Part shown: positions 660-24,918 of the stretch, piece by piece
Numbering within the stretch: the stretch's first letter is position 1
Layout: each line of letters opens with the position of its first letter
From: Candidatus Omnitrophota bacterium
GTDB lineage: Bacteria > Omnitrophota > Gorgyraeia > Gygaellales > Profunditerraquicolaceae
DNA: 43,913 nucleotides
Direction of reading: 5' to 3'
Assembly (NCBI GenBank): GCA_026387405.1
Contig: JAPLLV010000061.1
Span: forward strand, 1 to 43,913
Position numbers and translations under genes: made by a program
Notes under the pieces: generated by a model
Told to the model about the DNA's origin: nothing
Database searches by the model: none
The model's input: the letters and a program-made list of their open reading frames with translations, nothing else

Positions 660-1170
660 AATTAAGATGCTCCTGGCAATTTTCCTCGCTCAAGTCGCTT
701 TTCCCCCTCAATAAGCTTTTATCCAGGGGGATGCCAGAGGTCTTTCGCATTTTCGGCGGCTGCTGAACTCGTCGCATTTGCTCCGGCAAATGCTCCTCAA
801 ACAGCATCGCCGTCCCGATATTGCCCCTTCGGGGCATCGGGATTCCCGAAAATGCTCAAGCTCCTCTGGCTAAAAGCTCCATTCGCTCGTAAAACTGCCA
901 GTAGCATCTTAAAGCAATAAGCTTTGAGCGGGTGGCGAGGATAGTTTTAAGTATTCTTAGGCTTTTTGGTTGCGAGGGATATTGTGAGCGCACAATTACC
1001 CCGAAACATATACCTGAATAATATTCTTTAAGGTAAAAGTTTTGGGGGCTGCGCGAATTGAGCACCTTAACTTTTTGTCTAGCGAAATCCCTGCGAGCGT
1101 AAGCGAGCAGGGGCAATGTCCCGACGCAAACGAAAAGCGAGCAGTGATGCGACGAACATGACTCGACAGC
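660..1170. repeat. Multi-hairpin repeat element, copy A
   Basis: This non-coding block fills the gap between the ferredoxin and the FAD oxidoreductase. It matches, in reverse complement, the block at 23200-23677. The core (662-912) has terminal inverted repeats of about 22 bases (662-683 and 891-912). Inside them lie nested stems: AGCTTTTA 714-721 with 871-878, GCCAGAGG 733-740 with 863-870, and GCATTTTCGG 747-756 with 846-855. Within these are two hairpins, 774-793 (8 bp, TCCG loop) and 814-841. The outer part (913-1165) keeps ATTGTGAGCGCACAATTA and AATGTCCCGACG blocks with another hairpin, near 1089-1112. No convincing reading frame lies inside. Confidence 0.85.
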
Positions 1171-1197: not shown

Positions 1198-2466
1198 ATG
1201 GTTAAACAATTCATAATTATCGGTAATTCGGCGGCGGGGATCGCGGCGGTTGAGGCGATCAGAAAACGGGATAAGGCGTCCAAGATCACCGTTATCTCCG
1301 ATGAGGAGTATTCCGCCTATTGCCGCTGCCTTATCACCGCTTATTTATCCGGAGAGATAAAAGAAGAGCAGGTTTTCTTTCGCCCGCAGGATTTTTATAA
1401 AGCGAACAATATCGAGCTGCTCTTGAATAAAAAAGTAGCCCGGGTTGATCCTAAAAAGAATCGTATTGTCCTGGAGGACAAGGCTCAATTGGGTTATGAC
1501 GCGTTGATGATAGCTACCGGAGCGCGCCCGAAATTCCCTGAACTAAAAGGCATTAAAAGGACAGGCGTGTTTGGTTTTCGCACCTTAAAAGACGCGCAAA
1601 ACATCTCCGGATTGCTGCCGGTGACTAAAACCGTCTGCGTTTTAGGGGGAGGGCTCATCGGCCTAAAGGCGGCCTATGCCCTGAAGAAAAGGAATATCGA
1701 CGTCAAGGTGATCATTAAGTCCCGCCAGGTTTTGTCGCAGTTGTTGGATTCTGAGGCCGCCGGATTTGTTCAGCAAAGATTAGAAAGTCACGGCATCGAA
1801 GTGCTTTTAGGCCAGGATGCGGCCGAGATAATCGGGGAGGGCGATATAAAGGCGGTGAAGCTTGATTCGGGAAAGGCTATTGGTTGTTCCATGGTTATCG
1901 TAGGTAAAGGCGTTTCCCCGAATATAGAATTGATCAAGGAAACGCAGGTGCAGTCTAATGAGGGGATTATCGCGAATAACCTCTTGCAGACCAGCGTTCC
2001 GAATATATTTACCGGCGGCGATTCTTGCGAGAGTTTTGACATAACCCTGGGAGAGCATACTATTAATGCCCTCTGGCCCGTGGCGGTGGAACAGGGTAAG
2101 ATCGCCGGAGCCAATATGGCCGGGGACAGCCTTAATTATGAGGGTTCAGTAGGGATGAATTCCGTTGAATTTTTTGGATTGCCGATCGTGTCATTGGGCA
2201 TATATAAGATCAAAGAAGGTAATGCCGCAGTTGAAGAGCTGAAGTTAAACGATGCAAAACGAAACCTGTATAAGAAATTAATCCTGGAAAATAATATTTT
2301 GGTAGGGGCAATATTAGTCGGGGATATAAAAAATAGCGGTGTATTCTTGCGTTTGATCCGGGAGAGGGTCGACGTTTCCCCGTTTAAGAGTGAGCTGCTC
2401 GGGGAAAATTTTGGTTATCCTACAATCAAGGATTTCGTTAAAACCAAGGAGCGCTTCTATGTCTAA
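1198..2466 (+). CDS. NAD(P)/FAD-dependent oxidoreductase (FNOR-like)
   Basis: A 422-residue flavoprotein of the pyridine nucleotide-disulfide oxidoreductase class II family (NADH oxidase, rubredoxin reductase, nitrite reductase FAD subunit). The N-terminal FAD fold starts IIIGNSAAGIAAVEAIR (residues 5-21). The NAD(P) fold shows VCVLGGGLIGLKAAYAL near residue 148, and the second FAD motif is NIFTGGDSCES near 270. SAYCRCLITAYLSG near residue 39 is the usual early motif of this group. It probably exchanges electrons between the upstream polyferredoxin and NAD(P)H; a CooF plus FNOR pair is known beside CO dehydrogenase in several acetogens. Its last eight bases overlap the start of acsB, so the two are probably translationally coupled. 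The nucleotide and partner specificity cannot be read from the sequence. Confidence 0.85.
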   Translation: MVKQFIIIGNSAAGIAAVEAIRKRDKASKITVISDEEYSAYCRCLITAYLSGEIKEEQVFFRPQDFYKANNIELLLNKKVARVDPKKNRIVLEDKAQLGYDALMIATGARPKFPELKGIKRTGVFGFRTLKDAQNISGLLPVTKTVCVLGGGLIGLKAAYALKKRNIDVKVIIKSRQVLSQLLDSEAAGFVQQRLESHGIEVLLGQDAAEIIGEGDIKAVKLDSGKAIGCSMVIVGKGVSPNIELIKETQVQSNEGIIANNLLQTSVPNIFTGGDSCESFDITLGEHTINALWPVAVEQGKIAGANMAGDSLNYEGSVGMNSVEFFGLPIVSLGIYKIKEGNAAVEELKLNDAKRNLYKKLILENNILVGAILVGDIKNSGVFLRLIRERVDVSPFKSELLGENFGYPTIKDFVKTKERFYV

Positions 2467-4642
2467 GATCGTCGCAACTGCGGTTATTCGCGGGGCAAAT
2501 GAAATTTATAAGCAGGCCGAGGAATTTTTAAACAAAGCGATCAAAGAAAAAGGCCCCAGCCAAAAGATCGGCTTTCCGGAAACCGCCTTTTATCTGCCCA
2601 TGGCCAATGCCTTATTGGGGGCAAAAGTTGAGACCCTTAAGGACGCGCAGGGCATACTCGCGCACGCCAAGACCTTGTTGCCGCGGGCCGTCCCTTCCGA
2701 TAGAGTTTGGTTGCCTTATTTAGGCGATGCCTTAAATGCCGGCATGTCCTCGTTATTTTGCGAAGAGATAATCGTGGTCCTGCGTTACCTGTATAACCAG
2801 GAACCGCAAAAAGATTGCAACGGCTTTTTCACGGATACGATCATGCGTTCGCTCGGCATCCAGCTTGTCGATGGACGCATGCCGGGATTCGCCGCAATAT
2901 TGGGCGCCGCGCCCGATAATAAAACCGCCGTCCAGATAATACGGGAATTGCAGGAGAGAAATATACTGATGTTCGTGGGTTCCTCGGTGAACGGCCGCTC
3001 CATCATTGACCAGCTCCTGGAAGAGAACGTGCAGATGGGCTGGGATAATTATATCGTTCCTTACGGCCGCGACACTATCTCGGGTATTTATCCTTTAAAC
3101 TGGGCGATCCGTTCGGCATTAACTTTTGGAGGGTTGAAACCCGGGCAGGCCGAAAAGTGTCTTTTGTATACCAAAGAACGCGTGTTTGCCTTTGGCTTGG
3201 TCTTGGGAGAGCTGGATGATATAAAATATGCCACCGGAGCCGGGGCGATAAATATGGGTTTCCCAATAATCGCGGATACGGATATCCCGGAGATAAAGCC
3301 GTCGGGGATCACTACCTACGAAGCCTTGGTCAAGGAATTGGACCACCGCAAGATCGTCCCCCGCTGTATAGAGGTAAGAGGGGTCAAGGTAAGGGTGTCT
3401 TCAATACCGATCCCGGTCCCTTATGCCGCGGCATTTGAAGGCGAGCGCGTGAGAAGAGAACAGCTGTATGTCGAATTTGGCCAAAAGGCCTCTACTGCTT
3501 TTGAGTACCTGGCGACCAGGGATTCAAGCGATATAGAAGATGCGAAAGTCGAGGTGATCGGGCCGGATATAGATAAGTTGGAAGAGGGTACTAAATCCAT
3601 GCCTTTGGCGATCATCGTTGAAGTTTCCGGGCGCAAGATGCAGAAGGACTTTGAACCCATATTGGAACGGCAGATCCATCGTTATACAAATTATTGCATG
3701 GGCCTTATGCATATCGGCCAGCGCGACATGAACTGGATAAGGATCAGTAACGACGCCTTTTCCAAGGGGTTTCGCCTGAAGCATATCGGCATAGTTTTGC
3801 ATGCAATGCTGCATCAGGAATATAGCGCGATAGTGGACAAAGTCCAGGTTAAGCTTTATACTAGGGAGCCGGACGTAAATAAACTTTTGCTTGAGGCTAA
3901 GTCGGCATACGATGAGCGGGATGAGCGCATGAGCGGGATGACCGATGAAAGCCAGGATACGTTTTTCTCATGCCTGTTGTGTCAGTCTTTCGCGCCCAAT
4001 CACGTCTGCGTGATTACGCCTGAGAGACTGGGATTGTGCGGCGCATATTCCTGGCTGGATGCCAAGGCTTCTTATGAGATCACGCCCAGCGGGCCGAATC
4101 AACCCATCTCTAAAGGAGCGGTGGCTGACGCAAGGCTGGGGCAGTGGAAGAACGTGAATGATTTTGTGTTTCAAAAGTCAAACAAGAGCATAGAAAAAGT
4201 AAGTATGTATTCTCTTATGGACGCGCCTCAAACCTCTTGCGGCTGCTTTGAGTGCATCCTGGCGATCATCCCCGAGGCAAACGGGGTGATGGTGGTGCAC
4301 CGCGATTACTCCGGGATGACCCCCTGCGGTATGACCTTTACTACGCTTGCCGGTTCGGTAGGCGGAGGAATGCAATCCCCGGGTTTTTTAGGCGTGGGTA
4401 AATTATACCTGGTAAGCAAGAAATTCATTGCCGCTGAAGGCGGTTTAAAAAGATTAGTCTGGATGCCCAAGGAATTGAAGGAGCTATTGTCAGATAAACT
4501 AAAAAACCGCGCGAAAGAAATAGGAATGCCGGATTTTCTGGAAAGAATAGCCGATGAAACGCAGACTGTAAATGCCGAAGGGCTGCTTGAATTCATGCAA
4601 AAAGTCAAGCACCCGGCATTGGGAATGGATCCCTTATTATAA
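2459..4642 (+). CDS. acsB: Acetyl-CoA synthase (CODH/ACS complex, bacterial type)
   Basis: A 727-residue protein that builds acetyl-CoA from CO, a corrinoid-borne methyl group and CoA, the last step of the Wood-Ljungdahl pathway. The A-cluster ligands are all present: C505, C508, C517 and C527 for the [4Fe-4S] cube, and C594-G-C596 for the distal nickel. Each is one residue below the Moorella enzyme numbering, and the length is nearly the same, so the whole bacterial architecture with the N-terminal CODH-contact domain is kept. The open frame extends 23 codons further upstream, but the ATG at 2459 has AAGGAG just before it and gives the family N-terminus. It overlaps the previous gene by 8 bases. 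No CODH subunit, corrinoid protein or methyltransferase gene is in the window; these must lie upstream or elsewhere. Confidence 0.97.
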   Translation: MSKIVATAVIRGANEIYKQAEEFLNKAIKEKGPSQKIGFPETAFYLPMANALLGAKVETLKDAQGILAHAKTLLPRAVPSDRVWLPYLGDALNAGMSSLFCEEIIVVLRYLYNQEPQKDCNGFFTDTIMRSLGIQLVDGRMPGFAAILGAAPDNKTAVQIIRELQERNILMFVGSSVNGRSIIDQLLEENVQMGWDNYIVPYGRDTISGIYPLNWAIRSALTFGGLKPGQAEKCLLYTKERVFAFGLVLGELDDIKYATGAGAINMGFPIIADTDIPEIKPSGITTYEALVKELDHRKIVPRCIEVRGVKVRVSSIPIPVPYAAAFEGERVRREQLYVEFGQKASTAFEYLATRDSSDIEDAKVEVIGPDIDKLEEGTKSMPLAIIVEVSGRKMQKDFEPILERQIHRYTNYCMGLMHIGQRDMNWIRISNDAFSKGFRLKHIGIVLHAMLHQEYSAIVDKVQVKLYTREPDVNKLLLEAKSAYDERDERMSGMTDESQDTFFSCLLCQSFAPNHVCVITPERLGLCGAYSWLDAKASYEITPSGPNQPISKGAVADARLGQWKNVNDFVFQKSNKSIEKVSMYSLMDAPQTSCGCFECILAIIPEANGVMVVHRDYSGMTPCGMTFTTLAGSVGGGMQSPGFLGVGKLYLVSKKFIAAEGGLKRLVWMPKELKELLSDKLKNRAKEIGMPDFLERIADETQTVNAEGLLEFMQKVKHPALGMDPLL

Positions 4643-22507: not shown

Positions 22508-23128
22508 ATGATTAAAGTAAAAATTTGCGGGATAACGAATTTAAGAGATGCTCTGGCAGCGGTGGATGCAGGCTGCGACGCGCTGGGATTCAATTTTTGC
22601 AAAAAAAGCCCCCGTTATATCAGGCCTCAGGCCGCTTTAGAGATAATCAGTAATTTGCCTAAGAGTGTTGTTAAGATAGGCGTGTTTGTGGATGAGCAGG
22701 AAAAAACCATAAAAAGCATTGCAAAATTATGTAAACTGGATATACTGCAATTTCATGGCCGGGAGTCTCCCGGGTTTTGCCGTAAATTCAAGGGCCTCAA
22801 GATAATCAAGGCCTTCAGGGTCAAGGATAGATTAGATCTAGAGGGTATCAGGGAATATAAGACTTTTGCTTATCTATTTGATGCCTTTAGCAAGTCCAGC
22901 CCGGGGGGAGGTACCGGGAAAAACTTCAACTGGGAGCTTTTGAGGCACCTGGCGGATATGAGGCAGCCGATCTTTCTCTCCGGCGGCTTGAATGCGCGTA
23001 ATGTGCGCAGGGCGATCGCGGCTGCGCAGCCGGACTGGGTGGATGCCTGCAGTTGCATTGAGCGCTCACCCGGCAAAAAAGATTCAGCCAAGGTCAGGAG
23101 ATTTATTCAAGCAGCTAAAGGCAAGTAG
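22508..23128 (+). CDS. trpF: Phosphoribosylanthranilate isomerase
   Basis: A 206-residue (beta/alpha)8 enzyme, third step of tryptophan synthesis. It starts MIKVKICGITNLRDALAAVD with the catalytic cysteine in KICGIT. GFNFCKKSPRYI, KIGVFVD and LDILQFHGRES are family blocks. Near the end, FLSGGLNARNV and DACSCIERSPGKKD form the phosphate site; the usual SSGVE reads SCIER here. It is followed by 600 non-coding bases. Confidence 0.95.
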   Translation: MIKVKICGITNLRDALAAVDAGCDALGFNFCKKSPRYIRPQAALEIISNLPKSVVKIGVFVDEQEKTIKSIAKLCKLDILQFHGRESPGFCRKFKGLKIIKAFRVKDRLDLEGIREYKTFAYLFDAFSKSSPGGGTGKNFNWELLRHLADMRQPIFLSGGLNARNVRRAIAAAQPDWVDACSCIERSPGKKDSAKVRRFIQAAKGK

Positions 23129-23199
23129 TAATTGAATGTATAGTAGTTATCGCTCATTGATTAAGCAGCACTAAAGGTATCTTGCGTGTGTTGAGAAGT

Positions 23200-23677
23200 A
23201 TCTTTCGCATCACCGCTCGCTTTTCGTTCGCGTCGGGACATTGTTCGCGCACGAATTTTTTCGCCGTGCACTACGGCTTACGGCTCGCGTCAGCTCGCTT
23301 CTTACGCCTTTGAGCGTAGGTAACTCGCTGACGCTCGCCGTAAGACCTTGTGCACTTTTGCCGAAAAAATTCTAATTGTGCGCTCACAATATCCCGAGCA
23401 AACGAAAAGCCTCAAAGCTTGTTGCTTTAAGATGCTACTGGCAGTTTTACGAGCGAATGGAGCTTTTAGCCAGAGGAGCTTGAGCATTTGAGGGAATCCA
23501 AACACGGAAGTATTTGGACGGCGAGCATGTTTGAGCCCGTCCTGGCGCGAGAGCGCCGACGGGCGAGTTGCGAAGCCGCCGAAAATGCGAAAGACCTCTG
23601 GCATCCCCCTGGATAAAAGCTTATTGAGGGGGAAAAGCGACCTTGAGCGAGGAAAATTGCCAGGAGCAGCTTAAATA
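23200..23677. repeat. Multi-hairpin repeat element, copy B (inverted relative to copy A)
   Basis: Fills most of the 611-base gap between trpF and trpB. The core is 23427-23674, with terminal inverted repeats 23427-23448 and 23653-23674. Its framework matches the reverse complement of 662-912. The two inner hairpins are new sequences at the same places: 23497-23518 (loop GGAA) and 23536-23563 (stem CCCGTC..GACGGG, loop GAGA). The outer part holds a long palindrome near 23273-23344, where TTACGGC-type arms repeat, and shared blocks near 23207-23245 and 23373-23402. No reading frame is convincing. Confidence 0.85.
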
Positions 23678-23739
23678 CAAAAATTTTAACACTGAGAACT
23701 AAATAGAAAGTCCATATCACTTGAATATTGGAGAAAGTT

Positions 23740-24918
23740 ATGTTGCCGGATAAAAGAGGGCATTTTGGGGAGTTTGGCGGAAAGTTTGTGCCGGAGACGC
23801 TGATCTCGGCGCTGGATGAGCTGGAGAAGGTATATAATAAATCCCGGCGCGATAAGAAATTCCGCCAGGAATTGGATTATTACCTGCGCGAATATGCCGG
23901 CAGGCCCACGCCTTTATATTTTGCCGAGAACCTGAGCAAGGACCTGGGGTTAAAAATATATTTAAAAAGAGAAGACCTTTTGCATACCGGCGCGCACAAG
24001 ATAAATAATACCCTCGGGCAGGCATTATTGACCTTAAGGATGAAGAAGCCGCGGGTGATCGCGGAAACCGGGGCAGGCCAGCACGGCGTAGCCACGGCAA
24101 CCGTGGCAGCGCTCTTTGGGCTTGAGTGCGCGGTCTATATGGGCGAAGAAGATATGGCCCGCCAGAGCCTGAATGTTTATCGCATGAAGCTGCTGGGGTC
24201 AGAGGTAGTGCCGGTCTCAAGCGGTTCCAGGACTTTAAAAGACGCGCTTACCGAGGCGTTAAGGGATTGGGTGACTAATGTGCGCAGCACCCATTACATT
24301 ATCGGCAGTGTTGCCGGTCCGCATCCATACCCGGCAATGGTGCGTGATTTTCAGGCGGTGATCGGCCGCGAGGCCAAAAAACAGATATTAGAGAAAGAGG
24401 GAAGGCTTCCGGAGGCTCTTTTAGCCTGTGTAGGCGGAGGAAGCAACGCTATGGGATTATTTTATCCCTTCTTTAACGATAAGAAAGTCAAATTTATCGG
24501 AGTGGAAGCCGGCGGCCTGGGATTAAGTCCGGGCAAACACGCGGCAACCCTGGTAACCGGCAAAGTTGGGGTCTTGCACGGTTCAAAATCGAATCTTTTA
24601 CAGGATAAATACGGCCAGGTTGAGACCACGCATTCGGTTTCCGCAGGCCTGGATTATCCCGGCGTTGGGCCGGAACACGCCTATTACAAAAAAATAGGCC
24701 GGGCAAAATACGTGGCCATAAACGATACCCAGGCCTTGGAAGGTTTTAAACTTCTTTCGCAGAGAGAGGGTATTATCCCCGCCCTGGAATCAGCGCACGC
24801 GGTTGCCTATTTGAAACAGGCGCGCCGCATCCTGAAAAAAGACGCGGTGGTGATAGTCTGTCTTTCCGGAAGAGGGGACAAGGATATGGGGATTGTGACT
24901 CGAGAGTTAAAATTATAA
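23740..24918 (+). CDS. trpB: Tryptophan synthase beta chain
   Basis: A 392-residue PLP enzyme that joins indole and serine. The PLP lysine is in [20 protein letters not shown]. The phosphate loop is [15 protein letters not shown], and [14 protein letters not shown] is typical of the TrpB1 class that works with TrpA. The ATG at 23740 is chosen because GGAG lies six bases before it; a TTG 12 bases earlier is possible. Element B separates it from trpF, so it may depend on readthrough or its own promoter. Confidence 0.97.

Follow-up and report, generated by a model that had tools for sequence, protein, structure and literature searches.

A family of mobile, non-coding palindromic elements with exchangeable hairpin cores in the phylum Omnitrophota

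Two palindromic elements in each repeat

The window, by which we mean the whole stretch of 43,913 nucleotides of Candidatus Omnitrophota DNA that was analysed, contains two copies of a repeat, and both copy A (660-1170) and copy B (23200-23677) were found where the original prediction had placed them. The window genes near the copies (1198-4642 and 22508-24918) are ordinary, encoding by Pfam an NADH-type oxidoreductase, an acetyl-CoA synthase subunit, a PRA isomerase and a PLP enzyme. Each copy had been described as one repeat element; the copies are real, but each consists of two palindromic elements side by side, M1, which is the part described originally, and M2, which represents a second family. 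M1 is bounded by terminal inverted repeats of 22 nt that enclose nested stems. We designate as T the M1 strand that starts ATGAATCTGGCGGTTTTCGAGCGAATGGAG in the family consensus (minus in copy A, plus in copy B) and as S the opposite strand. The features are given below; all four terminal arms and both Pv3 hairpins were assigned by reading the sequence.

about 661-912, minus strand: M1 of copy A (nhmmer and covariance model R1, 223 bits, E 4.6e-54; fold z -9.9)
662-683, no strand assigned: terminal inverted repeat arm of copy A M1, TTAAGATGCTCCTGGCAATTTT, pairing with 891-912
703-730, minus strand: optional hairpin Pv3 of copy A
774-793, minus strand: variable hairpin Pv2 of copy A, core as in genome copy C43
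814-841, minus strand: variable hairpin Pv1 of copy A, core as in genome copy C43
891-912, no strand assigned: terminal inverted repeat arm of copy A M1, AAAACTGCCAGTAGCATCTTAA
961-1138, plus strand: M2 beside copy A, core type CCCCGAAACATATACC..., shell GCTTTTTGGTTGCGAGGGATATTG...CAATGTCCCGACGCAAACGAAAAGC
23219-23410, minus strand: M2 beside copy B, shell as in 961-1138, unrelated core (GAATTTTTTCGG...)
23427-23675, plus strand: M1 of copy B (model R1, 218.8 bits, E 5.4e-53; fold z -8.0)
23427-23448, no strand assigned: terminal inverted repeat arm of copy B M1
23497-23518, plus strand: variable hairpin Pv1 of copy B, GGAA loop, core as in genome copy C77
23536-23563, plus strand: variable hairpin Pv2 of copy B, GAGA loop, core as in genome copy C77
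23605-23632, plus strand: optional hairpin Pv3 of copy B
23653-23674, no strand assigned: terminal inverted repeat arm of copy B M1, with one mismatch (AAGCTGC against GCATCTT)

The four hairpins singled out in the original prediction (774-793 and 814-841 in A, 23536-23563 and 23497-23518 in B) fold as claimed. M1 of copy A has a predicted energy of -118.9 kcal/mol, whereas its shuffled versions average -71.2 (z -9.9), the corresponding z value being -8.0 for M1 of copy B, -6.8 for M2 beside A and -13.0 for M2 beside B, and for each of these four elements none of 200 shuffled sequences reached the native fold energy. M2 at 961-1138 ends in the terminal repeats GCTTTTNG.../...CGAAAAGC, and the core has been swapped there too. 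M2 is also found on its own at many places in the window's genome, where one M2 shell carries at least two unrelated cores, in agreement with the earlier proposal that the outer half of the repeat likewise contains hairpins of different sequence in a common frame.

Conserved frame, covariation and exchange of cores

When M1 of the two copies was compared, the outer arms were found to be 98% identical on the 5' side and 100% and 91% identical on the 3' side, whereas identity fell to 48% in inner hairpin 1 and 23% in inner hairpin 2, just as had been suggested from the window. The inner core of copy A is 96-100% identical to that of another copy in the same genome, C43, from which it differs in the outermost arms (only 70-79% identical), and the core of copy B is 100% identical to that of C77, with outermost arms of 57-77% identity. 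Because each core has its match in a copy with different arms, cores must have been exchanged between copies. We conclude that A and B are chimeras and that the difference between them stems mainly from exchange of whole cores.

The shell can accommodate quite different contents. In other genomes it encloses a single hairpin as core in three copies (L121, L092 and L155), an M3-type palindrome (see below) in L276, and nothing in L165, where the core has been lost. Mini-M1 forms of about 95 bp with a small hairpin, TACTTTTCGC...GCGAAAAGTA, are present in four copies in genome G262 and three in G223. The idea that the element takes up palindromes is thus supported to the extent that palindromic cores of different kinds are found in one and the same shell. 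In a further copy (L146, 5769-6043) an extra palindrome (TCCTCCACACTGCTTTGGCGGACGTCCGCCAACGATTTGTGGCGGA) lies between Pv2 and the CGAGTT block and looks like a nested palindrome insertion. We also considered the 22-bp palindrome TCCGCCA...TGGCGGA, which occurs as a core and apparently as the extra hairpin in L146, as a separate tiny mobile unit, and set this aside as there are too few copies.

Covariation was assessed in an alignment (A1) of 35 M1 copies drawn from about 28 genomes besides the window's own. It can be seen that standard pairs occupy 95.8% of the pair cells, and that 37 of the 51 pairs, in 239 cells, have changed on both sides, against 22.5 pairs and 55 cells in shuffled alignments (none of 500 reached the observed values). 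The signal was lost when pairing partners were slid by one to three columns, a shift of a single column reducing paired cells to 41-46%. Conserved structure with replaced stems, as first noted from the two copies, is therefore a property of the larger set. The most variable helix of M1 is the terminal stem (helix 1), which nevertheless has compensated changes in all 11 of its pairs; it is the pairing of the M1 ends that is conserved and not their sequence. The frame is held by conserved unpaired bases, namely GAATG, TTTTAG, CTTGAG/CGAAAGA, GGGAATCC and TTTGAG/CGAGTT. The original prediction was staked on other copies also having hairpins at the variable positions, and this was borne out: every one of the 65 distinct segments at Pv2 folds into a hairpin, as do 59 of 66 at Pv1. 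At Pv3 some copies have a hairpin and others a short linker.

The two strands of M1 are not equivalent. T folds more stably than S in 86 of 89 copies with RNA parameters and in all 89 with DNA parameters, and tandem G.A mismatches (GA/GA) make up 80 of 389 2x2 internal loops on T compared with 1 of 244 in shuffled sequence. GA/GA loops are likewise confined to one strand in M2 and in M3. G.U accounts for about 3% of M1 pairs, at equal frequency on S and T. Among the four-base GNNA loops of M1, 21 of 31 conform to GNRA and the remaining 10 break that rule, being cGNNAg loops with a pyrimidine in the third position; 15 cGNAg triloops were also counted. Triloops of the form cGNAg and cGNNAg loops with a pyrimidine third base match the stable hairpin loops of DNA better than they do the GNRA rule of RNA.

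Distribution, mobility and placement

BLAST recovered additional copies in the window's genome, and a covariance model (R1) built from the 35 copies of alignment A1 identified nine M1 copies there, one of them cut by a contig end. BLAST with one M1 copy gave matches in 49 of 117 relatives, and model R1 detected M1 in 61 of 285 genomes sampled over Omnitrophota, so that the search of relatives proposed at the outset did uncover a family. Copy number ranged from 3 to 16 per genome in the 14 genomes searched in depth. M1 is about 210-260 bp long, with a consensus of about 235 nt. A pattern scan of 84,980 species returned 90 stretches, and among the 80 listed all were titled Omnitrophota or Omnitrophica except two titled only 'bacterium'; among the matches listed, M1 was found only in Omnitrophota. 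No M1 was found in viral contigs, phages or plasmid records. The window had no match in Rfam 15 at the gathering score, a permissive Rfam 15 search of ten M1 loci gave none within the element up to E 5, and a literature search found no paper on such repeats in Omnitrophota. We conclude that the repeats of copies A and B are members of a hitherto undescribed family of palindromic elements, mobile and non-coding, which occurs throughout the phylum.

Copy B is about 95% identical to another copy, C53, with unrelated outer flanks. An intergenic site in genus g13, next to a gene start that reads from the sequence as that of a CTP synthase (the pyrG-side site), holds M1 and M3 in genomes G167 and G225, with 520 and 509 bp, respectively, between the flanks, and the two M1 copies are opposite in orientation and of different subtypes. 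M1 is thus present there in two species, and the site is empty in at least six, the stretch between the flanks being no more than 43-99 bp of different sequence in G062, G285, G177, G012, G210 and G303. This polymorphism represents gain or loss of M1, the direction being taken from the majority state. M1 is therefore mobile, and the earlier statement that the repeat is not a transposon stands as regards its non-coding nature and fails as regards movement. The pyrG-side site is a hotspot (L234, L220, L238-L261), with M2-like sequence in G244, M3-like sequence in G319 and a small palindrome in G210. At another locus (L228, 1150-1215) M1 is located right where a gene ends and provides the stop codon (CAATGAACC); a related genome has a small GIY-YIG endonuclease-like ORF in the place of this M1 (L104, 4800-4300).

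No target-site duplication was detected, the longest direct repeat in M1 flanks being 4.16 against a permuted mean of 4.20, and no coding version or parent transposon was present among the M1 matches. A general insertion site of the form GAG[hairpin]CGA was also considered and dropped, as the scan was ill-posed, with G pairing to C in that motif, and as the loci had been preselected for M1. Y1 transposases are present in 92 of 117 relatives; none was found in the M1-bearing genomes G030 (98% complete) and G043 (93% complete). Of 12 Y1 loci, 11 had no M1, M2 or M3 alongside and none was flanked on both sides, the sole exception being an IS200-like Y1 transposase ORF about 76 bp from M1 in G076 (L185, 1483-2165), which we take to be a chance neighbour. 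A Y1/RAYT transposase was accordingly rejected as partner of M1, since it is missing from some M1 genomes and is not flanked by the elements.

With 89 distinct copies analysed, S was in the sense orientation in 52 of 69 cases with codirectional neighbours and T in 17 of 69 (binomial p 3e-5). From the upstream stop codon to the 5' end of S the median distance was 19 nt, and it was no more than 20 nt in 33 of 61 cases; the next start codon beyond M1 was a median of 84 nt away. There was no overall enrichment of M1 between codirectional genes (56/60 compared with 440/486 in the background, p 0.64), enrichment being seen only for gaps of at least 100 bp (p 0.02). In seven genomes (L004, L076, L099, L108, L150, L160 and L170) the upstream gene, as read from its C-terminus, encodes an amidohydrolase, and in six of the seven M1 adjoins the stop codon. 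These placement cases are not fully independent because some copies share a gene across genera; recurrence at one gene in different genera could reflect a retained cellular role. Three pairs of loci from different genera (L010/L157, L069/L142 and L078/L115) share a gene neighbourhood and have M1 in opposite orientations; for L078/L115, where the terminal repeats are nearly alike, this suggests inversion in place.

Another palindrome, M3, of about 165 bp, adjoins 19 of the 89 M1 copies. For 18 of the 19 it is found at the 5' end of T in constant relative orientation, usually with a gap of 3-25 nt, and by the tandem G.A criterion its structured strand is opposite to that of M1. BLAST with M3 of the relatives found nothing in the genome to which the window belongs.

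Relation to known elements and possible recognition by shape

REPs are palindromes of 20-40 bp, mostly with stems of 6-9 bp, that bear a GTAG or CGTC tag; they lie near the 3' end of the upstream ORF at variable distance from the next, and REP subfamilies have alternative complementary stems and adjacent units in opposite orientation (PMC3733652). M1 resembles REP/BIME elements in being an interspersed extragenic palindrome near the 3' end of the upstream ORF, arranged in opposite-orientation mosaics with M2 and M3. It differs in its size of about 235 nt and multi-branched form, in a consensus that lacks a conserved GTAG or CGTC tag at its termini, and in that REPs are RAYT-associated whereas M1 does not flank Y1 genes (12 loci). 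The BOX elements of streptococci, boxA-boxB(n)-boxC, have conserved outer and removable inner modules, a predicted fold and an interspersed distribution (PMC3049150). M1 likewise has conserved outer parts, removable inner parts and an interspersed distribution; in architecture, however, BOX varies the copy number of boxB, whereas in M1 palindromic cores that are unrelated to one another replace each other, their stems covary, and the element occurs across a phylum. With MITEs M1 shares terminal inverted repeats, absence of coding sequence, interspersion and mobility, but it has no fixed terminal sequence, no target-site duplication and no parent transposon among the M1 matches. By kind, therefore, M1 belongs with the bacterial interspersed palindromes (REP/BIME, BOX and MITE), although it lacks both the tag and the RAYT association of REPs and the target duplication of MITEs.

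In integron attC sites and the ends of IS200/IS605 elements, one strand is recognised as folded single-stranded DNA by its shape, and the sequence of the stems is free to vary. On inspection, the R'/R'' boxes of attC (GTTRRRY...RYYYAAC) are absent from the ends of the M1 consensus, ATGAATCTG...CAGATTCAT, and M1 differs from both systems in its much larger, multi-branched fold and in having no linked integrase or TnpA. M1 stands out by its size, by covariation that spans the phylum and extends to the terminal repeats, by a tandem G.A design that three families have in common, and by its interchangeable cores.

Our favoured reading, which we regard as probable while leaving appreciable room for others, is that M1 is a non-autonomous mobile palindrome of the REP/BIME/BOX kind, special to Omnitrophota, that is recognised by shape, probably as folded single-stranded DNA. 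A structured RNA, as considered in the original prediction, might instead be spreading through the genome under selection for its RNA form, be it a ribozyme, an sRNA or a riboregulator. This would also account for the strong covariation, the many conserved unpaired bases on T, the predominance of GNRA among the GNNA loops and the greater stability of T. Selection as RNA was not borne out, however, by the scarcity of G.U pairs, which are enriched on neither strand, or by the ten GNNA loops that break the GNRA rule; furthermore T is antisense to its neighbours in 52 of the 69 codirectional cases, cores within the family can be replaced or even lost, and the tested loci had no Rfam relative up to E 5, and we therefore consider this explanation unlikely. 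The observations made from the window are confirmed, and their interpretation is supported in part. Loops, G.U frequency and the antisense position of T together are suggestive of folded single-stranded DNA in preference to RNA. A REP-like role at the 3' end of mRNA, for which copies would be retained because their S hairpins, once transcribed, make the preceding message more stable or bring about termination or attenuation within operons, is somewhat easier to entertain, given the sense bias of S, its closeness to upstream stop codons with the next start further off, the recurrence of some sites in several genera and the like placement of REPs (PMC3733652). We hold this too to be doubtful, since S is the less stable strand, M1 stands in opposite orientations at the three pairs of shared loci, and it has been gained or lost between sister species.

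The covariation itself might have been made by template switching during replication (quasi-palindrome repair) and not by selection on shape. In the per-pair table double changes far exceed one-sided ones, G.U is rare and equal on both strands, and hairpins are known to be created and mended in one step (PMC8794818). Repair of this kind would, however, erase the conserved mismatches (tandem G.A, asymmetric loops, GAATG and TTTTAG) that persist across genera, and it accounts for the kept pairing but not for the kept frame, and so we judge it rather improbable, a little less so than the structured RNA. An ordinary MITE, that is, a deletion derivative of a DDE transposon moved via its terminal inverted repeats, would fit the terminal repeats, interspersion, non-coding nature and insertion polymorphism of M1, and yet is very improbable: the terminal repeats vary between copies and covary (helix 1) instead of keeping a fixed sequence, no target-site duplication was found, the deep inner structure is conserved across the phylum, and no pair of coding parent and internally deleted transposon derivative came to light.

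Under the favoured reading of M1 as a mobile palindrome recognised by shape, a shell formed by the terminal stem and the tandem G.A stems would fold on T and carry the interchangeable hairpin cores. A putative mover would most likely read the folded T strand by its shape and not by terminal sequence, with the stems, G.A platforms and GNNA/GNA loops as possible cues; such recognition would explain why the terminal repeats change in step and stay paired. The recognised form would probably be single-stranded DNA exposed in replication or repair. Cores would pass from one copy to another when conserved blocks recombine or undergo gene conversion, and template switching may in addition repair or replace stems and so add to the clean compensation. 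M1 tends to be located directly behind stop codons within operons, with M2 and M3 palindromes as neighbours, a habit it shares with the mosaics of BIME and BOX. An effect on the upstream mRNA like that of REPs is possible as a secondary role. More tentatively still, and with a good deal of doubt, Omnitrophota might possess a phylum-wide set of shape-encoded mobile palindromes, M1, M2 and M3, with a common grammar of stems and tandem G.A platforms, in which a shell takes arbitrary palindromic cores and a putative enzyme reads the folded single-stranded DNA, terminal repeats included, by shape alone.

Most known mobile repeats are recognised through the sequence of their ends, and Omnitrophota has almost no cultured members. 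In M1 the ends drift yet stay paired, and whole hairpin cores swap within one frame, across a phylum. M1 also cautions against taking strong covariation of an intergenic element in bacteria as a sure sign of a functional RNA. It lends itself as a naturally occurring example on which to test how a mobile element is maintained by its shape and not by its sequence, and its many natural variants offer a direct probe of what a shape-reading mobility or processing enzyme needs.
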